Shown: positions 3,772 to 22,379 of the stretch, piece by piece | Layout of the letters: every line of letters starts with the position of its first letter | Numbering within the stretch: the first letter of the stretch is position 1 | Source: Clostridia bacterium | Lineage (GTDB): Bacteria; Bacillota; Clostridia; Oscillospirales; Acutalibacteraceae | Assembly (NCBI GenBank): GCA_017430145.1 | Contig: JAFRNP010000014.1 | Span: forward strand, 1 to 48,123 | Direction of reading: 5' to 3' | DNA length: 48,123 nucleotides | Position numbers and translations under genes: made by a program | The notes under the pieces: model-generated | Databases searched by the model: none | What the model was told of the DNA's origin: nothing | Seen by the model: only the letters and a program-made list of their open reading frames with translations

Positions 3772-3804
3772 GAAAAACCAGCCCCAAGGGCAGAACGGGG
3801 CTGG
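3772..3804 (-). terminator. Rho-independent terminator after res
   Basis: Stem CCAGCCCC (3778-3785) pairs with GGGGCTGG (3797-3804). On the minus strand the stem is followed by TTTTTC. It lies about 65 bases past the end of the type III restriction subunit gene. The rest of 3600-3868 shows no gene, only this hairpin and the DUF218 promoter. Confidence 0.8.
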
Positions 3805-3868: not shown

Positions 3869-6499
3869 TTATAAACCTTTAGCAATTTCCATAAATCGGT
3901 TATAGGAATACGCGCCGGGGTAATCCGGAGTTTTTGTCTCGAACACCATAAAATAACGATACATCGTTCCCGCCAGTGAATCCCACTGTGCCCCCATTTT
4001 TGCTTTTGCCTTGGATTCATTATTATCCAGATGGTCGCCCTTCGTTTCTATCAACAGCACTTTGCCGCTGTGTGTGTAGGCGATGATATCCGGATAGGCG
4101 TGAAATGCGCCGTTGATACAGAAACCCAATCTGGAGATATTGCGGTGCCACCATTTGATATTCCCCATGGTAGAAAGTTCTGCCACGGTTTTTCTTTCAA
4201 ATTCGTTCATATCTTCCTCAGCGGAATACAGAGATTTTGGATAAATAGAGGTAAAAGCAGTAGGAGAAATAACAGACGGAAGTGAATAGAAAGGCGTGCA
4301 GGTGATTTTATCCTGTTCCAGCCAAAGATCGAATTGTTTCAACCTATGCACTTCAAGAAGCTGTTTGATTTTTTTCTCTATTTTACTAATATATGGGTAG
4401 GCGGATTGTTCCATATCGCTCAACTGATCTTCTGTCATGTTATCCACGATTCGGTCAACATATTTTTTCAGTTCTTTGTCGTTGACACTGTTAATTCTGG
4501 ATATCTTATGACAGATCATATCTTTACAGCGCGCCAGCTTTGCATCCGACGGCTGAGAAGCGAACCATTCTTTAAAATATGCGCTGTCCGCACCGCGTAC
4601 CTGCCATACCTTCGGGGCGGCGTCAATGGCGTCGTCAGTATCTACGCGCACGATCTCCGCGTCGATGGAAGAAAAATCGATCTGAACGTCCTTATCCTTC
4701 AGCGTAAATCCTTCTTCCAGATGTTCCGGCGTAAGCAAAACGGATTCACCGTCGGAGAAAAGGCTCGGCGCCGTTTTCAGCATAAACTGCGGAATGGATA
4801 ATGCGGCGGCCTCTTCGGCAAACACATCGTTCATCCGGAAAGCGTTCATTTTATCACGCACTTCTGCAGGCGCAAGATTGAGTGCGGTAGATTCTGCGGT
4901 GTTCAACTGTTCCTCATATGCTTCGTTTTGTTGCAGTGCAGAGGAGAATATCTCGTCTGCCGCCGATGGTGCTTCATCTGTAGAAACGTCCGACGACAAC
5001 GCGGCTGCGATTTTCTCTTTTATTGCGGCGAGCTGATTGGCGGAGATTTCCTCCACCGGTTCCTCAGGCACGGTAAGCTGTTCCGGTTTTGTTGTCGGCG
5101 GCGCCTTCGGTTCGGGTGTGTATTCTGCATAATCTTTGGCACGGTAGTCCTTGTTGCTGAAACCGGCATTGTTCAATCCCTTTACCACACGATCAAGCGT
5201 TTGGCTGAAATCGGCGGAAGAGGTGATAACGTAAGAAATATTCAACACATTGCTGGGGTTTTTCTGTGTGTACGGTAAACGAAGAACGCGCCCGAGAATT
5301 TGTTCCACGTCCACCGTGGAGGTGCGGTTGGCAACAGTAGCCAGCACATAGGCAAAGGGGCAGTCCCAGCCCTCTTTTAAGGCGTTGACCGTGATGATAT
5401 AGCGCACCGGGCAGGCACGGGAGAGCAGGTCCATACCCTTCAGCTCATCCTTATCGCCGGTTTTGATGGCGATTTCCTCTGCCGGTATCCCCAAAGCAAT
5501 CAGCGTTGCCTTGATTTTTACATAGGTGATGCTTTCGCTGCCGACACGGGGCTGCGCCTGAAACAGCACGATGGGGCGGATATACCGTCCTGTCGTTTTT
5601 TCATCCTCTTTGGCCTTCGCTTCCAGCTTGCAGCGGATGCTGATGGCGTCCCCGTATACGTCCTCCTGTGATTTCCGGTTATATACGATCACCGGCAGCT
5701 TGACCATATTGGCGCGTTTGAGTTGCGCGGCGTCCACAAAGGAGATGATATTGCTGGTTTTGGAGGGGGTGGCGGTTAAATCCAACACAAAACAGGGGTT
5801 GAAGTTTTCCAGCATTTCCACACTGAGCTTTGAGGTCGCGTGGTGGCTCTCATCCACGATCACTACAGGGTTCAGGGAACGGATCACCTGGATCAGTGCC
5901 GTTTCATCCGTATCGGGCAGCAAAACGGATTTGTCCTGCATCAGCTTCGGGAACATGGCAAGGTTGCCGTTTTCCTGATAGGCTTTGCGTCCTTCCTGTT
6001 TGCTGGTACGGAAGGAATCATAGCTGAGAACAAAAACGGAAAGCTGCTCCGTCACGGTAGTGGGGTTGAAATTCTGACCGTTCAGCAGCTGCGCTTTGGA
6101 ATAGACCTCTACCGCGCCGCCGAAATCCACGTCGAGCTTCTGCCGGTACGGATGGTCCGGATTGCTGAGCGCGGCATACGTCTGCGTCAATATTGCGTCG
6201 GAGGGCACCAGCCAGACCACCGCCTTTGCGGTACGCACCGGCATGGCGTCGTAGATCGTTTTCACGGCGCTGGCTGCCAAAAAGGTTTTGCCGCCGCCGG
6301 TGGGGACTTTGAAGCAAACATCCGGCACGCCGTTTTTCAGGTTGTACCGATAGGCGGGCAGACCGTTCAACCCGATATTGACGTTCCTTTCATTCCAAAA
6401 TGCGGAATATGCCTTTGCCGCCGTGCCGGTTTCGGTGAGCAGCGTGAGAAAGCGGGATAAATCCGCAATGACATCTTTTTGATAGGTTTTAAGTTCCAT
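3869..6499 (-). CDS. res: Type III restriction endonuclease, Res subunit (helicase-nuclease)
   Basis: An 876-residue Res subunit of a type III restriction-modification system. With Mod it forms the complex that hydrolyses ATP, moves along DNA and cuts when two unmodified sites are met. Visible are Walker A PTGGGKT (residues 66-72), DEAD-box motif DESHH (216-220), motif III-like LTATPS, motif VI-like EQILGRVLRLPY, and a C-terminal PD-(D/E)xK nuclease (YPDIIAY then IETKG, about residues 815-835). Length is near the family's usual 850-1000. The start is supported by GTGGAGGAAATACG. It is the last gene of the mod - AAA/TOPRIM - res operon, 18 bases after the middle gene. All catalytic motifs look intact. 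Confidence 0.95.
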   Translation of the reverse strand: MELKTYQKDVIADLSRFLTLLTETGTAAKAYSAFWNERNVNIGLNGLPAYRYNLKNGVPDVCFKVPTGGGKTFLAASAVKTIYDAMPVRTAKAVVWLVPSDAILTQTYAALSNPDHPYRQKLDVDFGGAVEVYSKAQLLNGQNFNPTTVTEQLSVFVLSYDSFRTSKQEGRKAYQENGNLAMFPKLMQDKSVLLPDTDETALIQVIRSLNPVVIVDESHHATSKLSVEMLENFNPCFVLDLTATPSKTSNIISFVDAAQLKRANMVKLPVIVYNRKSQEDVYGDAISIRCKLEAKAKEDEKTTGRYIRPIVLFQAQPRVGSESITYVKIKATLIALGIPAEEIAIKTGDKDELKGMDLLSRACPVRYIITVNALKEGWDCPFAYVLATVANRTSTVDVEQILGRVLRLPYTQKNPSNVLNISYVITSSADFSQTLDRVVKGLNNAGFSNKDYRAKDYAEYTPEPKAPPTTKPEQLTVPEEPVEEISANQLAAIKEKIAAALSSDVSTDEAPSAADEIFSSALQQNEAYEEQLNTAESTALNLAPAEVRDKMNAFRMNDVFAEEAAALSIPQFMLKTAPSLFSDGESVLLTPEHLEEGFTLKDKDVQIDFSSIDAEIVRVDTDDAIDAAPKVWQVRGADSAYFKEWFASQPSDAKLARCKDMICHKISRINSVNDKELKKYVDRIVDNMTEDQLSDMEQSAYPYISKIEKKIKQLLEVHRLKQFDLWLEQDKITCTPFYSLPSVISPTAFTSIYPKSLYSAEEDMNEFERKTVAELSTMGNIKWWHRNISRLGFCINGAFHAYPDIIAYTHSGKVLLIETKGDHLDNNESKAKAKMGAQWDSLAGTMYRYFMVFETKTPDYPGAYSYNRFMEIAKGL

Positions 6500-6517
6500 C
6501 GTATTTCCTCCACTGGA

Positions 6518-8107
6518 CTATCTTGGAATCTCAGGCGGGAGATAGCGACTAATTGCTTCTGCTATCTCATCATGTTTAGCTCCTTTTAACAAAGACATAA
6601 CTATAGAGCAATACTCTTTGTCGGTGATACCAAGAAAATGACCAATCGAATTGGAGATATTTTTTTCGTTAAATACTTTAATGATTTCAAGATAATCGTT
6701 ACTGTCGAGTGGTGCCGTAAATCTTGTTATTTGCGTATTTCTTATTTTATCGTATTCAATATCAGAATAGAGATTTTCCAAACTTGCCTTTGCTTCAGTT
6801 TCGTCTTTTTTTGAAATCTCAGCACAGGTTAATTTGTATTTGATTTCAGCGACAACGCTTTGCAAAATCTGCTTATGAATTTGATTTGCATACCGATCTG
6901 CAATCACATACTTTTTGATCTCAGAAAACACCGCATCGGCATTTTTACCAATATGGACTGCCATAAAGCGAATTAGTTCTTCAACGATAAACAGGTTTTC
7001 AACTTCAGCAACTTGTAGCGTGAAGATATGATCTTTTTTGTGTTGTTCAATCTCATAATCCGAACGATAATCCCTGTCAATCAATCCATAAACATCATAT
7101 TCATGTAAAGTTTTATTCTTCTGAAACGCCTTTGTTTGCTGAATAACTTGTGTGCAGGAACCGCAGGGGATAACGTAGTATGAAGGATAGAGTTCCGAAT
7201 AAAGCTGAAAATCATAGCTATCGCTATCGCCTTCCACGAACAAAACTGGTTTTCTGCCGCCAAGAATATTTAAAAGCAACTCGTCCGGAAGATCATTATT
7301 CTCAATCAGTTTTTTCGTCCAGTGTTTACCATCATAGTTTTGAATCCAGATTTTATCCGAGTGGCTATGAGATGCGGCAAAGAATGTATCATGTGTAAAA
7401 TATACAAAAAGGCAATCGGGGCGTGCTTGTTCCAAGGCTTCCCATAACTGATTCACGACAGAACGGTGCAAATGGAGTTCAGGCTCATCAATAATCAATG
7501 TTTTTCCTTCTGGTGCACAAAGGACCGCAGCTATTAAATAGAGCGCTTCTCTTTCTCCGTCGCTCATCATTTTTGCGGAATAATGCTTATATTCCCCGTC
7601 TATATCATAGCCTGCGTAAAATTTCGAATCCTCAAAAACTAAATAAGGGTGAGAGAATATGCGACGCCAGATTTGGAGCAAAGTGTCGACTGTCAAATTA
7701 GGAACAGTTGGCATTTCTCCTCCATTTTCTTCAGCTTTTTTACATTCATTGAAGAAATCTTCTTTTTCTTTTTGATCTTTGGCGGCTAATGTTGAAAGAA
7801 CATCATCATAATCACTGAATAGTTTCGTGGTCTCTGAGTATTTATTATAAAAGATTGAAACCTTTTTTTTAGAATTGAATACTGTATTTTTTATTTCAGA
7901 GTATTTTTTTGGAGCAACTTCATCATTAAATCTTAAATCTCTTTGAGCTCCAATTCGATGTGCATTTTCCTTGATTAGGTGTTCGAGCCATATTCCCAAC
8001 CTGCTTTTCCCTGAACCATTTGCTCCAATGATAATTACAGAATTTGTATTGGTTTTATGCTCTTGTCCTTTCCCATCTTTGTCTGGAAGCCAATATGAAT
8101 ATTCCAT
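6518..8107 (-). CDS. AAA/ABC-type ATPase fused to TOPRIM (DUF4435-like), PARIS/OLD-like defence protein
   Basis: A 529-residue two-domain protein. The N-terminal ABC/SMC-like ATPase has Walker A GANGSGKS (28-35), signature-like MSDGERE (181-187), Walker B LIIDEPE (204-210) and a switch histidine FTHD (237-240). The C-terminal half has TOPRIM hallmarks: FVEGDSDS (290-297) with the conserved Glu, GLIDRDY (341-347) with the DxD pair, and VAEVENLFI (366-374), which resembles the E-x-EN motif of DUF4435. An ABC ATPase joined to DUF4435 is the make-up of PARIS (AriA plus AriB), for which single-chain forms are described; OLD-family nucleases have a similar plan. It lies 9 bases after mod, with a Shine-Dalgarno overlapping the mod stop, and 18 before res. 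Base composition is AT-rich. ATPase-TOPRIM assignment is firm; PARIS versus OLD is inference. Confidence 0.85.
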   Translation of the reverse strand: MEYSYWLPDKDGKGQEHKTNTNSVIIIGANGSGKSRLGIWLEHLIKENAHRIGAQRDLRFNDEVAPKKYSEIKNTVFNSKKKVSIFYNKYSETTKLFSDYDDVLSTLAAKDQKEKEDFFNECKKAEENGGEMPTVPNLTVDTLLQIWRRIFSHPYLVFEDSKFYAGYDIDGEYKHYSAKMMSDGEREALYLIAAVLCAPEGKTLIIDEPELHLHRSVVNQLWEALEQARPDCLFVYFTHDTFFAASHSHSDKIWIQNYDGKHWTKKLIENNDLPDELLLNILGGRKPVLFVEGDSDSYDFQLYSELYPSYYVIPCGSCTQVIQQTKAFQKNKTLHEYDVYGLIDRDYRSDYEIEQHKKDHIFTLQVAEVENLFIVEELIRFMAVHIGKNADAVFSEIKKYVIADRYANQIHKQILQSVVAEIKYKLTCAEISKKDETEAKASLENLYSDIEYDKIRNTQITRFTAPLDSNDYLEIIKVFNEKNISNSIGHFLGITDKEYCSIVMSLLKGAKHDEIAEAISRYLPPEIPR

Positions 8108-8116
8108 TTTGTTTCC

Positions 8117-9802
8117 TCACAGTTTTGTAATATCCCGTGGAATCTTTTTGAATGTGATATTATATCGTTTCAATTCCTCGTCTGGAATAGCGCAGAGGTC
8201 TGCATAGATCAAATAGTTCTCTGCCTTTTCAGTGATGGTGGCAAGGAATTGATGGTTCAGCGTGGTAACGGTGTCTTTCTCATAATAGAAGTAGTAGCCG
8301 GTATCGCGGGCGGCGCCAAGATAATAGGGGTTATCCTGTTCTGGCGGGGCATACGGCGATTTTGTTTCCATGTACCACACATATTCACGGATTTTTTCTG
8401 TTCCGGCGTTTTCGTTCAGATTGCCGTCCGGCAGCAGCAGCGCGGGCCCCAGATCGTAGAATGTAAAATCGCCGCCAGTACCCTCCACCGCGTTTTTGCC
8501 TTCGCCGTAGCCGTCGATCACGCGCTTTACCCGCTCGGCGGTAATACTGTCGGCATAATCCATCATTTCCACCAAGATAAAATGGCGGTGCCCGCTGTCG
8601 GCTTTGTTCATATTTAAGACGGCATGGGCGGTAGTCCCGGAACCAGCGAAGGAATCGAGAACAATAAAATCACTTTTACTATAAGAATATAGCAGCTTTG
8701 TAATGAGTTTGACTGGTTTAGGATAATTAAAAGGTTTTTGTTGCCCAAAAATAATACGTAATTCTTCATCAGCGTCTTCATTTGAGCCCCAACCATCTGC
8801 TGTTAAATCATCTGGATTAATATCTGCATCATAAGAAAGATCTTCATTTTCACCAGTTCTACATAATAAATCCTTTAACCGTTTATATCTTGGTGATTTT
8901 ACAATCCTTCTTATGTATAAATCCTGTGTTATATATAATTCTTTGTTGGAAGAGAATATTTCCATATTATCGCTTGAATATCTCCAATTCCCTTCAACTT
9001 CAAAATCGTTAACAACTACTCCGTCCTCAACTACTAAATTCGTTTTATATTCTATACTCATTGTTTTGTTGGAAATAATTGTTCCAGCAGGCAAAACAAA
9101 AGATTTTTCTCTATACTTGCTAAGTATACCGCCTTTTATGTTTCGCAATTCTCTTTTGTTAGGCGCATTGATACAAGGATAGGTTTCTTCCTCGTATTCA
9201 ACACTCCCTATCAATCCTTCAAAACAGTCTTTATTCTTACAATATACAAAGACATATTCTTTAATATTAGTAATTGTTCCAGATAAAAATGAACCTTTTT
9301 TCTTTTTCTCCCAAACTAACTGAGCAATAAAGTTCAAAGAGCCAAATATCTCATTACATAATATTTTTAATTTGTCTTGTTCGTTATCATCAATGCTGAT
9401 AAAAATAACACCGTCTTTAGCCAGCAATTTATGAAGTAGTTTTAGCCGAGGGTACATCATACAAAGCCATTTATCGTGACGGCTCAAGTCTTCTCCTTCA
9501 TCACCAACAACTTCTCCCAGCCATTTTTTAATTTTTGGATCATCAACATTATCATTATAAACCCATCTTTGGTTCTCGTTTGTACTTTTTGCAGTATTGT
9601 ACGGAGGATCGATATAGATACACTTGATTCTGCCCTCATAGCGGGGCATCAGGGCTTTTAGCGCCTCTAAATTATCTCCTCGGATAATCATGTTTTCGCT
9701 TCTTTCGGCGTTGTAGGTATATTGTTCCTCCAGCACCCGGTATGGCACCTGCTGGTGATGGTTGATAACCTTTTCTTTCCCGATCCACTCAAGTGTCGGC
9801 AT
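8117..9802 (-). CDS. mod: Type III DNA methyltransferase, Mod subunit (adenine-N6)
   Basis: A 561-residue beta-class DNA adenine methyltransferase that gives the type III system its sequence specificity and protects host DNA. Motif IV DPPYNT (65-70) precedes motif I FAGSGT (385-390), the order expected for the beta class. Between them lies the target-recognition region (about 150-370). That central part (about 8640-9640) is visibly more AT-rich than the C-terminal part (8117-8600), as if the recognition domain had been exchanged separately. The start is supported by TATAGGAGGATCCTTC. It is the first gene of the operon; the middle gene starts 9 bases past its stop. I saw no simple-sequence repeat long enough to suggest phase variation within mod. 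Confidence 0.95.
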   Translation of the reverse strand: MPTLEWIGKEKVINHHQQVPYRVLEEQYTYNAERSENMIIRGDNLEALKALMPRYEGRIKCIYIDPPYNTAKSTNENQRWVYNDNVDDPKIKKWLGEVVGDEGEDLSRHDKWLCMMYPRLKLLHKLLAKDGVIFISIDDNEQDKLKILCNEIFGSLNFIAQLVWEKKKKGSFLSGTITNIKEYVFVYCKNKDCFEGLIGSVEYEEETYPCINAPNKRELRNIKGGILSKYREKSFVLPAGTIISNKTMSIEYKTNLVVEDGVVVNDFEVEGNWRYSSDNMEIFSSNKELYITQDLYIRRIVKSPRYKRLKDLLCRTGENEDLSYDADINPDDLTADGWGSNEDADEELRIIFGQQKPFNYPKPVKLITKLLYSYSKSDFIVLDSFAGSGTTAHAVLNMNKADSGHRHFILVEMMDYADSITAERVKRVIDGYGEGKNAVEGTGGDFTFYDLGPALLLPDGNLNENAGTEKIREYVWYMETKSPYAPPEQDNPYYLGAARDTGYYFYYEKDTVTTLNHQFLATITEKAENYLIYADLCAIPDEELKRYNITFKKIPRDITKL

Positions 9803-11151: not shown

Positions 11152-12480
11152 TCATGTGACGCTGTAATTGCCCGCAAATTCCCGCGCCCAGGTCTCTTCG
11201 ATCCCGCGGCGCCAGGTAAGCGCGAGTCGTTTGAGTTCTTCGCAGGTGTCCGGCAGCGTTTCGGCAAGGTTGTTTTTTTCGCCGGGGTCTTTGCTCAGAT
11301 CAGCCAGAAAAACGGGGGCGCGGGGCGCTTCGCCCTCCTCCAGCCTGCCGTTGAGGACCAGCTTATAATCGCCGCGCCGCACGGCGGTCTGGTCCTCCAT
11401 CTCCCAAAACAGACAGTCGTGCGGGGCACTTTCGCCCTTCGTGAGCAGCCCGAGGATGCTTTGTCCGTCCGTATCGTACGCCGCCGGGTCGCCGCCGCAG
11501 GCCTGCAAAAGCGTGGGGAAGAGGTCGGTCGCCATGCATGGCTCTCCGATCACGCGGGCGGGGACTTTGTTTCCCCAGGAGAACAGCGCCGGCACGCGGA
11601 CGCCGCCTTCAAACAGGCTGAACTTGTGCCCCGAAAAGATCCCCGTCGTGCCGCCGTAATACGGGTCTTCGGTCCCGTCGAGCCAGTTGCGGCTCTCCCT
11701 TGAGGGGCCGTTGTCGCTTTGAAAATAAATGATCGTATCGTCAAACAGCCCGAGTTCCCGCAGCGTGTCTGTGATCTCGCCCACGCCGTCGTCCACGGCC
11801 GCCAGCATTGCCGCCATGATGCGCCTGTCCCACGGCAGGTCCGGGAACCGGTCAAGGTAACGCGCAGGCGCGTGCATGGGGTAGTGCGGCGCGTTGTAGG
11901 CGGTATAGAGGAAAAACGGTTCGTCTTTGTGCCGGCGGATAAAGTCCACGCTCTTTCTTGTGATGCGTTCGGTCAGGTACTCGCCGTCGGCCCGGACCTC
12001 CTCGTCGTTCTCCCACAGGTCGTGGGTGGGGTTGAAGCCCCCGTCGGACATGCCGTAGTAAAAGATATGGGAGTAGTAATCGAGGCAGCCTGCCAGAAAG
12101 CCGCTGAACTCGTCGAAGCCGTTGGCGTTCGGGCGGCATTCGGGCTTCAGCCCCAGATGCCATTTGCCGCAGATCCCCGTGGCGTACCCCTCTTTTTTCA
12201 GCGCGCCGGCAAGCGTGGGGACCCGGGGCGTCAGCCCGCTTGCCCTGCGGTGCCCCGCCAAAATCGCGCGTACGCCGGCGTTGCCGGGGTAGCGGCCCGT
12301 GAGCAGCGCCGCTCTTGAGGGCGAACAGACGGGCGACGCGGCGTACATGGAGGTAAACCGCGCGCCGTTTCCGGCAAGCGCGTCCAGGTTCGGCGTTTTC
12401 AGGTCCGCCGCGCCCATGCAGCCGAGGTCCCCGTAGCCCTGGTCATCTGTCAGAATAATGATCACATTCGGTTTTTTCAT
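11152..12480 (-). CDS. Sulfatase, Cys-type, cytoplasmic
   Basis: A 442-residue type I sulfatase (alkaline-phosphatase superfamily) that cleaves sulfate esters, probably from glycans or small molecules. The N-terminus IIILTDDQGYGDLG supplies metal-binding Asp residues. The active-site signature is CSPSR (52-56), so the catalytic formylglycine would be made from Cys52. Later conserved blocks are GICGKWHLG and the metal motif FQSDNGP. There is no signal peptide, so it should act inside the cell or on imported substrate. The divergent neighbour encodes an anSME-type maturase, exactly the enzyme needed for a Cys-type sulfatase in an anaerobe. Full length, no defects seen. Confidence 0.93.
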   Translation of the reverse strand: MKKPNVIIILTDDQGYGDLGCMGAADLKTPNLDALAGNGARFTSMYAASPVCSPSRAALLTGRYPGNAGVRAILAGHRRASGLTPRVPTLAGALKKEGYATGICGKWHLGLKPECRPNANGFDEFSGFLAGCLDYYSHIFYYGMSDGGFNPTHDLWENDEEVRADGEYLTERITRKSVDFIRRHKDEPFFLYTAYNAPHYPMHAPARYLDRFPDLPWDRRIMAAMLAAVDDGVGEITDTLRELGLFDDTIIYFQSDNGPSRESRNWLDGTEDPYYGGTTGIFSGHKFSLFEGGVRVPALFSWGNKVPARVIGEPCMATDLFPTLLQACGGDPAAYDTDGQSILGLLTKGESAPHDCLFWEMEDQTAVRRGDYKLVLNGRLEEGEAPRAPVFLADLSKDPGEKNNLAETLPDTCEELKRLALTWRRGIEETWAREFAGNYSVT

Positions 12481-12500
12481 GATTGTTCACATCCGGACGG

Positions 12501-12529
12501 TTGAATTTCGGTTCTGCTTATATTATACT
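12501..12529 (+). promoter_or_regulatory. Promoter of the anSME operon
   Basis: TTGAAT (12501-12506) and TATACT (12524-12529) are 17 bases apart, about 30 bases before the anSME start. The -10 overlaps the -10 of the opposing sulfatase promoter. Confidence 0.65.
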
Positions 12530-12549
12530 GGAAAGAGAAAACGTGTCAA
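12522..12549 (-). promoter_or_regulatory. Promoter of the sulfatase operon
   Basis: On the minus strand TTGACA (12544-12549) and TATAAT (12522-12527) are 16 bases apart, about 40 bases before the sulfatase start. It faces and overlaps the anSME promoter, so the two probably exclude each other. Confidence 0.65.
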
Positions 12550-12558
12550 GGAAAAACA

Positions 12559-13626
12559 GTGATGAAAAATCTGACCTTACTGATCAAACCCGCCGCAGGG
12601 CTGTGCAATATGCAGTGCGGCTATTGCTTTTACCGGACGCTGAGCGAAGACCGGGAAAACCGGATCATGCAGCCCGAAACCGCCGGCGAGCTGATCCGGA
12701 AGATCGCCGCCTTTCGGCCGTCGGCGCTGTCCGTCGTGTTTCAGGGCGGCGAACCGACGCTGGCGGGCCTTGATTTTTTCCGCTTTTTTGTCCGGGAGCT
12801 GGAACAAAACGTCCCCTGCCCGGTCTCTTATTCCCTGCAGACGAACGGGCTTCTGATCGACGGCAAATGGGCGGCTTTTTTGCGGGATAACGAATTTCTG
12901 GTCGGCGTTTCGCTGGACGGAAACCGCAAAACCAACGACCGGTACCGGCTTGATAAGTCAAACCAAAGCGTGCTGCCGCAGGTGCTGGAGGCGATCTCCG
13001 TCCTTGAAAAACACGGCGTCGACTATAATATCCTTTCGGTGGTCGACGATGAAAACGCAAAGGATATCGAAACGACCTGGCGGTATTTTGCAAAGCACGG
13101 ATTCCGGTTCCTGCAGTTCATCTCGTATGTTGACGAAGGCGGCGCGCGGCTCTCGCCCGAAGCTTACGAAACCTTTCTGAAAAAAGTGTTCGACCTCTGG
13201 TACGCGGATTTTCAGCGCGGCGAATACGTTTCGGTGCGGCACATCGATAATTACGTGGGCGTGCTGATGGGACGGCGGCCGGAGAGCTGCGCCATGTGCG
13301 GGATCTGCGGGGGGTATTACGTCGTGGAGGCAAACGGCGACCTATATCCCTGCGATTTTTACTGCAGGGAGGCATACAGGCTCGGCAGCGTCTTTGACGA
13401 AAACCCGTTTGAAGCGAACGAAAAACAGCGGCGCTTTACGGAAGATTCCGAAACCATCCACGTTTACTGCCGGCCATGTAAATACTACGACCTGTGCCGC
13501 GGCGGCTGCAGGCGGGACCGCACGGCTGACGGCACGAAAAACAAATACTGTGCGGCGTATTACCATTTCTTCGAGTATGCCGCCGAACGGATGAAAAAAG
13601 CGGCGGAGGCGTTTTTGAATGGATAA
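12559..13626 (+). CDS. Anaerobic sulfatase-maturating enzyme (radical SAM, SPASM)
   Basis: A radical S-adenosylmethionine enzyme of about 355 residues that oxidises the active-site Cys (or Ser) of sulfatases to formylglycine without oxygen. The radical SAM cluster motif is C16-x3-C20-x2-C23 (CNMQCGYC), followed by the GGEPTL motif. The C-terminal SPASM domain has its own Cys set for auxiliary iron-sulfur clusters (CAMCGICGG, LYPCDFYC, YCRPCKYYDLCRGGC). The start is GTG 12559 or ATG 12562, both after AAGGAA. It is divergent from the Cys-type sulfatase with which it must work, and overlaps the next gene by 8 bases. Confidence 0.93.
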   Translation: MMKNLTLLIKPAAGLCNMQCGYCFYRTLSEDRENRIMQPETAGELIRKIAAFRPSALSVVFQGGEPTLAGLDFFRFFVRELEQNVPCPVSYSLQTNGLLIDGKWAAFLRDNEFLVGVSLDGNRKTNDRYRLDKSNQSVLPQVLEAISVLEKHGVDYNILSVVDDENAKDIETTWRYFAKHGFRFLQFISYVDEGGARLSPEAYETFLKKVFDLWYADFQRGEYVSVRHIDNYVGVLMGRRPESCAMCGICGGYYVVEANGDLYPCDFYCREAYRLGSVFDENPFEANEKQRRFTEDSETIHVYCRPCKYYDLCRGGCRRDRTADGTKNKYCAAYYHFFEYAAERMKKAAEAFLNG

Positions 13627-19682: not shown

Positions 19683-22316
19683 TCAGACCCAAGTGGAAGG
19701 ATCGTCCAATTCAACGCTGGCGCGCAGGATCCTTCTTGCGTCGTCTGCTCCGACGGCCCTGTCGCCGTTCGTGTCGCACGCAAAACAGGCTAAGCTGTCT
19801 TCGGGATAGTTTTCGAGGTCCACAGATCTGCGAAGCGCCAGCCGCGCGTCGTCTGCTCCGATTATCCCGTCGTTATTAACGTCACCGCGTGTTACTGAGG
19901 ATCTGCATTTCGTACAAACATAAGTCATTCCTTGAATGGCCGTCGACGGATCGCCGTTTGCGGGGATCAGAGAATGCTGCGTCCGGAATTTTGCCGTCAT
20001 CGTCACAGACGAAATTACGGGGAACCTGTAATCCTTGTGGTCGGTAATAAGCGTTCCGTCTATGTACCAACCCTGGAATTCGCTGCAGACGGTACGCTCC
20101 GCTTGAACGGTAACATAGTCGCCTCTGACTGCGGTCACGGAGGCGGATACCTTTCCGTCTCCTTCTGCCTGTACCGTTATCTGTTCGTTCCTGATATCTT
20201 CCACGGGCATAAACTCTGCAGGGGCGATAATGCTGTCGCCGGAGGATAAGGTGTAGTTTTCAAGCTCGAAGGTCTCCGGATCGAGTACGCCTTCGTATGA
20301 ACTCCCGGGCGTCAGCGGAAGATCGTAGTAATTGACGCGCTGGATCTCTCCCAATGCGCCGTCGATTTCGGAGACCGTATAATCCATTGTGCCCGTGTCA
20401 TATCCGATGAGTTCGATTCTGTAATCCGCGTCGGACAGGGTGAAGAAGCTCTTTTCATAGCCAACGACTGTCATTTTGAGGACGTCGGTATTTTTCCGGA
20501 TTTTATTGTTTATGATCTGCCCCAAAAGCTTGCCGGTTGCATTATCGTAGACGTTGACGTTAACAGGACAGTTCAGAACATGCTTAAAAGTGGTTCTCGG
20601 CGGGTCGATCTGGTACAGTTTGATATCTGAACCGTATTTTTTTACGGTCATGTCTTTATCCTTTGTTTTCGGGGAAATAAAGTTATACAATTCTTCGAGA
20701 GTGACCGCGACGCTCTTATCCTTGTCCGCTTTCAGTTTATTGTCAAAGAACCCGATGCCTTTTCCGAGATAGTAGGAAAAACAACCGTAGGGCAATTGTC
20801 TGAAAAAAGAGAGTTTCAACGCCTCTTTCGGTTTGCTGGTTTCGTCCTTGCCGCAGGAGGTCAGAACAGAAAAACGGGTCCTTTCTTCCTGCGAAAGATT
20901 CTTAACGCCGTCTGAAATAAAGCCCTCACTGTGGCAGGCGTCAATCAGAACAACTATTTTTCCGTGGATATTGTCAAGAAGCGTTTTTGCGAGAACATCC
21001 CATCCGATGATTTCAACACGGTCGGCGGTGTCGGCCAAGACTAGTCCTGTGGAACTGCCGTGCCCGGAATAGAAAAAGAAGGAGAGATCGCTGTCCCGGG
21101 TTTGTGAAAAAGAATATTTGATTTTCTCTTTAAATGCAGTCGTATCGGTGGGATCATTATCGCAATTGTAAGAGAGAAGATGCTGATCGGATTCTAAACA
21201 GTAATGCCCGTTGAGCGTGTTGCTGCACATACGGGTATAAAACATGGAGATGTCGTTGTCTGTGCCGAAAACGCTGTTATTACTGATTCCGTTGACGCTC
21301 AGCGAAAAGATCCGGGGGATGCCCTTTTTCCGAAGAACGGGAAGGTTGGAAAACGTCCAGACGTTATCAAAGTCCCATCCCAGATCTTCATAGGTGCTCT
21401 GTTTCCCGGATTCTTCTGTTGTGATGACGGCGGCCGATTTGTTGGGCATGTCTGCCGCCAGACGGTCAATGACCCTGTTGTTTGTCAGTGTGGAATAAGG
21501 ACAGATTACGTCCCTGAATATCCTTGTCCTTCCCTCTATCGTCACAGAATCGGTCAGGGCGACGCAATTGGATATTTTACCGCTGCCGGACCCGACGATC
21601 CCGCCGCAATAAATATAAGAGTTTGTGCTTTGCGCATACAGAGAACCGGCGGCATAACAGTTTTCAATGATCGACGTAGCGTCCCACGAGGCAATGCCGC
21701 CGACCATCGTATTCTGATTATCCGCCTTCGCCGAAATGGAAGCGACCGCATAGCAATTCCTGATAATGGATTTGTCGCAGCAGCCGAACGCGGATGCGCG
21801 CGCAAACGAATTGTTTGTTGTCTGCGCCGAAACACTGCCGGTGAAGTAACAGTTTTCAACCGTCGTCATGTTGAACAGCTCGCCGGCAAAGCCTGCTGCG
21901 TGGCAAAAGGACGCATTTCTTGTCAGGCTTCCCGTCACATGGGAGGAGACAGAGGCGTTGACGATTCCAAGGTTCTTTATGGTCGCGCCGCTGACAACAG
22001 AGAACAGAGCGGCGTTGACCGGCCTTGTCCCGTCGGAGGCATCTGCAACAACCCTGACCGTCAGATTCCGGATTTCGAAACCGTTGCCGTCAAGCGTCCC
22101 GGTAAAGGGTTCCGTGCTGCTCCCGATCGGCATCCAGGAGCTGTAGCCGGACAGATCGATATCGTTTTTGAGAACGTAATGGGCGTCCGGCTTATTTCTG
22201 ATCAGGCTGAGCTCATCAGGGGTCGTGATCTCATAGATGGTCTTCGCCGAGCTCACAAGCGGGAGCGACAGAATCAAAATCAAAAGGCAGAGTAAAACGG
22301 AAACGTTTTTTTTCAT
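19683..22316 (-). CDS. Secreted metacaspase-like (C14) protein with dockerin domain
   Basis: An 877-residue exported protein. In order: signal peptide (KKNVSVLLCLLILILSLPLV); an N-terminal GLUG/beta-helix-like repeat region (about 40-290) with recurring NCY(F/A) and GGI motifs; a caspase-fold peptidase with catalytic His in FYSGHGSS (His419) and Cys in IDACHS (Cys461); a divergent InlB-type repeat (about 740-800, AERTVCSEFQGWYIDG); and a C-terminal type I dockerin of two calcium loops (GDVNNDGIIGADDARL and CDTNGDRAVGADDARR). Dockerins bind cohesins, so the protease may dock on a surface complex. Start 22316 is chosen because GAGGG precedes it, the signal peptide begins there, and the promoter's start site would fall downstream of the earlier ATG (22352). 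Slightly lower GC than its neighbours. Confidence 0.9.
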   Translation of the reverse strand: MKKNVSVLLCLLILILSLPLVSSAKTIYEITTPDELSLIRNKPDAHYVLKNDIDLSGYSSWMPIGSSTEPFTGTLDGNGFEIRNLTVRVVADASDGTRPVNAALFSVVSGATIKNLGIVNASVSSHVTGSLTRNASFCHAAGFAGELFNMTTVENCYFTGSVSAQTTNNSFARASAFGCCDKSIIRNCYAVASISAKADNQNTMVGGIASWDATSIIENCYAAGSLYAQSTNSYIYCGGIVGSGSGKISNCVALTDSVTIEGRTRIFRDVICPYSTLTNNRVIDRLAADMPNKSAAVITTEESGKQSTYEDLGWDFDNVWTFSNLPVLRKKGIPRIFSLSVNGISNNSVFGTDNDISMFYTRMCSNTLNGHYCLESDQHLLSYNCDNDPTDTTAFKEKIKYSFSQTRDSDLSFFFYSGHGSSTGLVLADTADRVEIIGWDVLAKTLLDNIHGKIVVLIDACHSEGFISDGVKNLSQEERTRFSVLTSCGKDETSKPKEALKLSFFRQLPYGCFSYYLGKGIGFFDNKLKADKDKSVAVTLEELYNFISPKTKDKDMTVKKYGSDIKLYQIDPPRTTFKHVLNCPVNVNVYDNATGKLLGQIINNKIRKNTDVLKMTVVGYEKSFFTLSDADYRIELIGYDTGTMDYTVSEIDGALGEIQRVNYYDLPLTPGSSYEGVLDPETFELENYTLSSGDSIIAPAEFMPVEDIRNEQITVQAEGDGKVSASVTAVRGDYVTVQAERTVCSEFQGWYIDGTLITDHKDYRFPVISSVTMTAKFRTQHSLIPANGDPSTAIQGMTYVCTKCRSSVTRGDVNNDGIIGADDARLALRRSVDLENYPEDSLACFACDTNGDRAVGADDARRILRASVELDDPSTWV

Positions 22317-22350
22317 TGGTCGTACCCTCGGTTTTTCATAAATTTTATTC

Positions 22351-22379
22351 ATTATACATTAGATGCTCGGAAAATGCAA
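22351..22379 (-). promoter_or_regulatory. Promoter of the metacaspase-dockerin gene
   Basis: On the minus strand TTGCAT (22374-22379) and TATAAT (22351-22356) are 17 bases apart, about 35 bases before the start at 22316. Confidence 0.65.

Follow-up and report, generated by a model that had tools for sequence, protein, structure and literature searches.

A type III restriction–modification (RM) operon of a Clostridia bacterium carries an additional gene between its methyltransferase gene, mod, and its restriction gene, res, and this gene is identified from its sequence as the single-chain PARIS protein AriAB. The operon lies in the 48,123-base stretch of DNA analysed here (the window), which is one entire contig of a draft genome of 3.03 Mb that is 86.6% complete. 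The same order, mod-AriAB-res, occurs on a separate res lineage in a second genome (G014), which belongs to another family of the same class, and AriAB is linked to RM genes at two further loci. The AriAB fusion was already known; what is new is its place inside an RM operon. On balance, it probably acts there as a co-expressed second line of the operon, which senses a phage anti-restriction protein and shuts the cell down.

Gene order and identity of the middle protein

An earlier prediction, made from the letters of the DNA alone (the original prediction), had described three open reading frames (ORFs) on the minus strand in the order mod, AAA/TOPRIM, res, with gaps of 9 and 18 nucleotides (nt). 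We confirmed this layout together with its coordinates. The features of the operon are as follows, in the order of transcription.

8117..9802, minus strand: mod, type III DNA methyltransferase, 561 aa, operon gene 1 (PF01555 1.7e-35; PADLOC MTase_III PDLC03644 2.4e-173, residues 1-560)
8108..8116, minus strand: gap of 9 nt between mod and AriAB, where the insertion slot begins (junctions aligned with 6 direct mod-res junctions)
6518..8107, minus strand: AriAB, identified as a single-chain PARIS protein, 529 aa, operon gene 2 (PADLOC AriAB PDLC02982 1.2e-149, residues 2-527; conserved motifs)
7298..8107, minus strand: AriA-like ABC/OLD-type ATPase half of AriAB, about residues 1-270 (AAA_21 1.1e-10; profile of 19 relatives)
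6632..7255, minus strand: AriB-like DUF4435 (TOPRIM nuclease) half of AriAB, residues 285-492 (PF14491 3.4e-16; PADLOC AriB 7.2e-18)
6500..6517, minus strand: gap of 18 nt between AriAB and res, with the Shine-Dalgarno-like GGAGGAA (same junction comparison)
3869..6499, minus strand: res, type III restriction subunit, helicase with a C-terminal PD-(D/E)XK-like motif, 876 aa, operon gene 3 (PF04851 2.7e-18; PADLOC REase_III 9.9e-79)
3773..3804, minus strand: probable intrinsic terminator, 9-bp stem and five U (fold -17.8 kcal/mol, z -3.99 against shuffles)

The translation of mod contains DPPY and FAGSGT, and that of res contains TGGGKT, DESHH and PD...ETK, which we take to be the motifs of type III enzymes. 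An intact Mod methyltransferase and Res helicase-nuclease are encoded in one operon, which is split by AriAB. Compared with the six direct mod-res junctions, the insert sits exactly between two conserved elements, the end of Mod (FKKIPRDI, any residue, K or R, L, stop) and the start of Res. AriAB and res each have their own Shine-Dalgarno-like stretch. The short gaps and the hairpin after res lead us to predict that the three genes are transcribed together. The hairpin and its five U occupy the region 65-96 nt past the res stop codon, and we call it a terminator because of its fold rather than from a pattern scan: its loop is 9 nt long, and the scan, which covered loops of 3-8 nt, did not list it. 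In that scan, promoter and terminator sites were no commoner than in shuffled sequences (9 vs. 12.2 and 6 vs. 7.4), and no promoter stood out. An assembly artefact is ruled out as the source of the gene order by the identical order in G014.

The middle gene combines matches to Pfam AAA_21 and DUF4435 in one chain of 529 residues. Among PADLOC models AriAB ranked first, over nearly the whole length, with AriB second, and AriAB was the top PADLOC match of six out of six relatives tested. The first half contains the ATPase motifs Walker A (G28-K34), signature (S182-E185) and Walker B (D207-E210) as well as His239, and the second half contains the TOPRIM-type residues E292, D344, D346, E370 and N371. 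In alignments of 12 and 19 sequences these residues show no or almost no variation, a few being conserved at 90% or more, and the five TOPRIM-type residues are common to the two-gene AriB from Paraburkholderia (locus L013). A profile of 19 AriAB sequences reached solved structures of the retron Ec83 ATPase (2e-10), the OLD protein 6p74 (2.7e-5) and AriA 8ux9 (2.3e-4). The PADLOC match, the conserved motifs and the reach of the profile to AriA together identify the protein as a single-chain PARIS protein: an ABC/OLD-type ATPase is fused to a DUF4435 half with TOPRIM-type acidic residues. Both the assignment to a PARIS-type ATPase-TOPRIM chain and the expected conservation of the acidic residues, as put forward in the original prediction, have thus held up at the level of sequence. 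PDB matches obtained with the single sequence and with the two-gene AriB were at chance level and were discarded.

Two other assignments were considered. Gabija and other OLD classes are ruled out by the C-terminal half, which is DUF4435. A Gabija system combines GajA, with an OLD TOPRIM, and the helicase GajB; here the GajA match is confined to residues 179-232, and the adjoining helicase is ResIII (PF04851). OLD proteins, Gabija and the retron ATPases (Ec83, Ec78) have the ABC/OLD-type ATPase half in common with AriAB, which differs from them in its DUF4435 nuclease half and in its neighbours, mod and res instead of gajB or a reverse transcriptase. The anticodon nuclease PrrC is ruled out as well, as the protein has no PrrC match and the RM system is of type III, whereas PrrC goes with type I hsd genes; PrrC does not appear among the families listed, nine from Pfam, 15 from NCBIfam and the best 25 of 45 from PADLOC.

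Occupancy of the mod-res slot and origin of the insertions

We inspected the mod-res slot at 26 related res loci, namely the window, L015 (in G014), L025, L056, L057, the plasmids L026-L033 (eight of 20 matching plasmid records) and L058-L070 from IMG/VR (all 13 scan matches). AriAB occupies the slot in the window and in L015. At the other 24 loci mod runs straight into res with no gene between them, the longest annotated gap being 221 nt (L027). No gene other than AriAB was seen in the slot among the 26 loci; small ORFs found there in L033 and L061 are fragments of a broken Mod. The original prediction expected the gene at the corresponding locus of a relative, and G014 bears this out. Its description of the gene as 'an integral part of the system' was too strong, because 24 of the 26 related res loci are without AriAB; nor was an RM operon seen at most AriAB loci, as described below.

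At E ≤1e-20, AriAB turned up in 7 of the 391 class genomes searched, in 2 of 120 from the window's family, in 1 of 157 from its order and in 5 of 249 from the order of G386; searches in the family and the order of G014 gave 1 of 16 and 1 of 31. These AriAB counts include the own genome and loci already known. The Res subfamily (1e-60) matched in 3 of the 391 class genomes and, within the order of G357, in 3 of 210, with G357 counted in both. Beyond the window and G014, no mod-AriAB-res operon was found in these genome searches or among the IMG/VR matches listed. Across the phylum, the PADLOC AriAB model (1e-40) recovered the own genome only (1/398), and a scan of genome contigs yielded a single AriAB, without RM genes. 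In a phage collection AriAB matched two records, both of one Oenococcus phage, and Res had no match. The DUF218 gene on the left flank of the operon is present in 11 of 26 genomes of the genus. A clean empty site was not demonstrated at the five loci inspected around this gene, which was recovered among the selected ORFs in four: of a set of ten window genes (three left of the operon, four right of it, mod, AriAB and res), no other was found at any of the five.

Trees were used to ask whether the two operons go back to a single insertion. The Res tree has 24 rows and does not include L069 and L070; in it, the window pairs with L058, which has no AriAB, at a support of 100/100, and L015 is placed elsewhere. 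A tree with the window and L015 as one clade was rejected (approximately unbiased test, p 0.0018), and the fewest steps on the Res tree are two insertions. The Mod tree likewise forces two changes, with weaker support than the Res tree; Mod recognition domains recombine. In the middle of the window mod (8543-9382), the GC content at third codon positions (GC3) is 0.26-0.29, compared with 0.59 in the last third of the gene, as expected for an exchanged target recognition part. The AriAB tree comprises 26 rows and omits L019, whose frame of 400 aa is short. There, L015 pairs at 94/91 with L002, a stand-alone AriAB without RM genes, and a clade of the window and L015 received a p of 0.024.

Composition was compared between AriAB and its neighbours. 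The final 450 nt of mod have a GC3 of 0.58, the opening 450 nt of res one of 0.71 and seven flanking genes values of 0.71 to 0.81, against 0.32 for the window AriAB. The contrast with mod and that with res were each reached by none of 5000 permutations, a composition as for an inserted cassette. Because the Res tree rejects a single origin and the GC3 of the window AriAB differs from both neighbours, the two mod-AriAB-res operons likely arose by separate insertions. Counting against this are the moderate support of the AriAB tree and the composition of the other loci: in L015 the GC3 contrast of AriAB is not significant with mod (651/5000) and modest with res (59/5000), and in L016 there is none (0.18 in AriAB vs. 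0.19 and 0.21 in the RM genes). Possible alternatives are a single insertion that was lost again several times, or recombination that carried the cassette from one operon to another.

AriAB loci with and without RM genes

Single-chain AriAB was found within or behind RM operons at four of the 40 loci examined (the window, L015, L016 and L052). In the tree of 26 AriABs, these four all belong to the eight-member clade closest to the window (96/94). L016, from genome G386, contains a third AriAB lineage, located 21 nt after M.HpaII-R.HpaII (PF00145 1.1e-106, PF09561 9e-133), a type II system. The HpaII-AriAB order recurs in decayed form at L052:6387-8478 (G930:C2, from another genus of the family of G386). 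Here M is reduced to a piece (residues 1-77), with an HNH gene in its place; R is broken (76.5% identity across residues 35-360; longest frame found 142 aa), and 47 nt on an intact AriAB follows. The RM genes are full-length at the other three loci.

No RM operon was seen at the remaining 36 loci, and AriAB therefore evidently works without one. These are L002, L009-L014, L017-L020, L035-L038, L040-L044, L047, L051, L053, L086-L094, L098 and L100-L102; in L019 the frame is short, L020 matches residues 140-524 only, and in L091 and L093 the annotation shows pieces. L039, L045, L046, L095-L097, L099 and L103 were excluded as duplicates or ATPase-only matches. RM genes were sought by BLAST with the window Mod and Res and with M.HpaII and R.HpaII at 26 loci and eight more, and with Pfam on selected neighbours, so that other RM types may have escaped; L087, L088 and L091-L093 were judged from annotation alone. 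The contig of L017 ends 228 nt upstream of AriAB, where an RM system could be hidden. Methylase or other modification genes do occur near AriAB in L010, L090 and L041, but they form no RM operon with it. In L010 a dcm gene lies 3.2 kb downstream, and in L090 an N-6 methylase gene is convergent with AriAB. In L041:6775-9551, a phage-like IMG/VR sequence, AriAB lies 110 nt downstream of a phage Mom DNA-modification gene on the same strand, and in L038 a divergent ORF near AriAB resembles a DNA methylase by eye.

Mobile elements and other defence genes were also seen around AriAB. At L015:492-5427, a SIR2-like gene, a HerA-like helicase gene (PF13289, PF01935) and a serine recombinase stand beside the second mod-AriAB-res operon, and these surroundings look like a mobile defence island. 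AriAB in L018:8493-16578 (G054) adjoins a TniQ/TnsD gene followed by three further genes, which by ORF order are presumably tnsC, tnsB and tnsA; this AriAB is likely cargo of a Tn7-like element. A Paraburkholderia sabiae plasmid (L013:4348-8623) encodes a two-gene PARIS (ATPase and DUF4435) and, directly after it, a single-chain AriAB. In L037:6161-12775 (IMG/VR), AriAB is flanked by an AAA_15 ATPase gene and by a gene whose product combines LRR, Roc-COR and TIR domains. As AriAB in L094:212-6934 (IMG/VR) lies amid what by eye are apparent phage tail genes, single-chain PARIS probably also travels as prophage cargo.

Possible roles of AriAB in the operon

In PARIS of E. coli, AriA holds AriB, Ocr frees AriB, and AriB cuts lysine tRNA (PMC12409363; PMC12409349). 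The system is active in cells without EcoKI, and guarding of EcoKI was excluded by its discoverers (Rousset et al. 2022, PMC9122126). Although PARIS is described as an answer to phages that disable restriction, in E. coli it proved independent of the resident restriction system.

In the explanation that we favour, a single-chain PARIS gene would have entered an intact type III RM operon between its two genes. Mod and Res would be the first line, methylating self DNA and cutting unmethylated phage DNA, and the ATPase half of AriAB would keep its own DUF4435/TOPRIM nuclease half inactive. Contact of the ATPase half with a phage anti-restriction protein, probably a DNA mimic, would release the nuclease to cut a host tRNA, so that translation stops and the infection is aborted. 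We infer the trigger, the tRNA cleavage and the abortive outcome by analogy with PARIS of E. coli, and the position of the gene suggests that RM and AriAB were selected together as layers against the same phages. In favour of this explanation are the identity of AriAB with its conserved motifs, the recurrence of the gene in the slot of G014 on another res lineage, the cassette-like GC3 of the window gene, the absence of other genes from the slot at the 26 loci, the HpaII linkage at L016 and L052, and the precedents of PARIS in BREX loci (PMC11341690; PMC12839542).

Several observations weigh against this explanation. The AriAB profile matches the retron Ec83 ATPase better than AriA, and the AriA half is shorter than E. 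coli AriA by about 180 arm residues: from the Walker A Lys to the signature Gly there are 150 residues in AriAB (K34-G184) and 330 in 8ux9 (K39-G369). Because the arm is shortened, the trigger of AriAB may differ from that of E. coli PARIS. In L052 the RM genes are broken and AriAB is intact, so that the PARIS gene outlives the RM system, and AriAB is found without an RM operon at 36 of the 40 loci. In Salmonella, Ocr and its homologue Gp5 are reported to have failed to trigger a BREX-embedded PARIS, and deletion of ariA or ariB to have raised defence against some phages, tenfold in the case of TB34 (PMC11341690).

The decay in L052 also suits a different explanation, in which AriAB is a mobile stand-alone gene that landed in the operon and is expressed from the mod promoter, with no functional tie to RM. 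We regard this as rather unlikely, although it is the alternative to be taken most seriously. Single-chain AriAB occurs with no RM operon around it in several settings: on plasmids, in phage-like contigs, next to a Tn7-like tnsD gene and behind a serine recombinase. Moreover, the insertions number only two, and clustering of defence genes is well known. Against a chance landing, the only fillings of the mod-res slot among the 26 loci are both AriAB, the four RM-linked AriABs fall in one clade of eight, and the RM genes have kept full-length frames in three of four cases. Another alternative is that AriAB acts as a true guard: bound to the Mod2Res complex, it would be set free by a phage protein that disturbs or blocks this complex, in the manner of PrrC and the type I enzyme EcoprrI. 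A place between mod and res would match its synthesis to that of both subunits, and guard-like RM accessories have precedents in EcoprrI-PrrC and Ronin (PMC12409349). Such a guard is nevertheless improbable: close relatives with 55% (L002), 50% (L051) and 48% (L047) identity have no adjoining RM genes, and because all nine Pfam families listed are ATPase or DUF4435 models, no extra domain for binding Mod or Res is visible in AriAB. We doubt to the same degree a broader form of this idea, in which the mod-res slot is a preferred one that AriAB filled independently, giving three-gene systems where AriAB physically monitors Mod2Res, a type III counterpart of EcoprrI-PrrC with a different nuclease. 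The original prediction saw AriAB as a guard that a phage would trigger by blocking the restriction enzyme; published PARIS data speak against this. A backup that senses the phage inhibitor directly is preferred over a guard bound to Mod and Res because E. coli PARIS acts without EcoKI and guarding of EcoKI was excluded (PMC9122126). Finally, AriAB might be a DNA-directed nuclease like OLD or Gabija that aids Res in destroying phage DNA. The ATPase-TOPRIM layout, the adjacent helicase gene and a weak PADLOC GajA match (3.5e-5, residues 179-232) point in this direction, yet that match is confined to the ATPase half, the C-terminal half is DUF4435/AriB with no OLD-type TOPRIM model among the nine Pfam families, and E. 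coli AriB is reported to cut tRNA (PMC12409363), which makes this role highly improbable.

Known systems resemble the operon in part. Single-gene AriAB fusions were reported in 2022 and detected as 'loner' genes (PMC9122126), and in 2023 their position among the OLD classes was called unclear (PMC10568477). The protein described here resembles these fusions in being one chain of an AAA_21-type ATPase and DUF4435 that the PADLOC AriAB model covers nearly at full length, but it is located inside a type III RM operon (the window and G014) or behind an HpaII RM system (G386) rather than alone. As precedents for PARIS within a methylation-based defence locus, PARIS is embedded in a BREX island of Salmonella (D23580; PMC11341690), and BREX loci have recruited PARIS-like modules (PMC12839542). 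Those loci are BREX, with two separate PARIS genes in Salmonella, whereas here a single chain is combined with type III, and also type II, RM. EcoprrI-PrrC, a type I RM system with an anticodon nuclease (PMC12409349), likewise encodes a translation-stopping nuclease together with RM, but there PrrC forms a complex with the RM enzyme, and here the nuclease is part of an ATPase-DUF4435 chain with its own sensor half. A 2025 review describes RM systems with accessory genes that are thought to drive abortive infection (PMC12707154). In the literature searched, which did not reach most subscription papers, we found no report of PARIS within an RM operon of type III or type II.

The apparently separate insertion of AriAB into such an operon in two families hints that a reserve defence is built into it against phages that disable the restriction enzyme. 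The natural AriAB-type III and AriAB-type II operons make joint selection of restriction and anti-anti-restriction directly testable, and allow one to ask whether a PARIS protein takes its signal from the restriction enzyme itself. In addition, the small single-chain AriAB with its shortened sensor arm provides material for finding new triggers.

Two further features of the window lie outside the operon. At 11152-13626, a sulfatase gene is adjacent to and divergent from a radical SAM/SPASM gene, which possibly encodes its maturase. The region 19683-22352 encodes a protein of 889 aa with weak matches to caspase-like peptidases (PF00656 1.7e-5, PF01650 8.1e-4) and with GLUG and InlB-type repeats.

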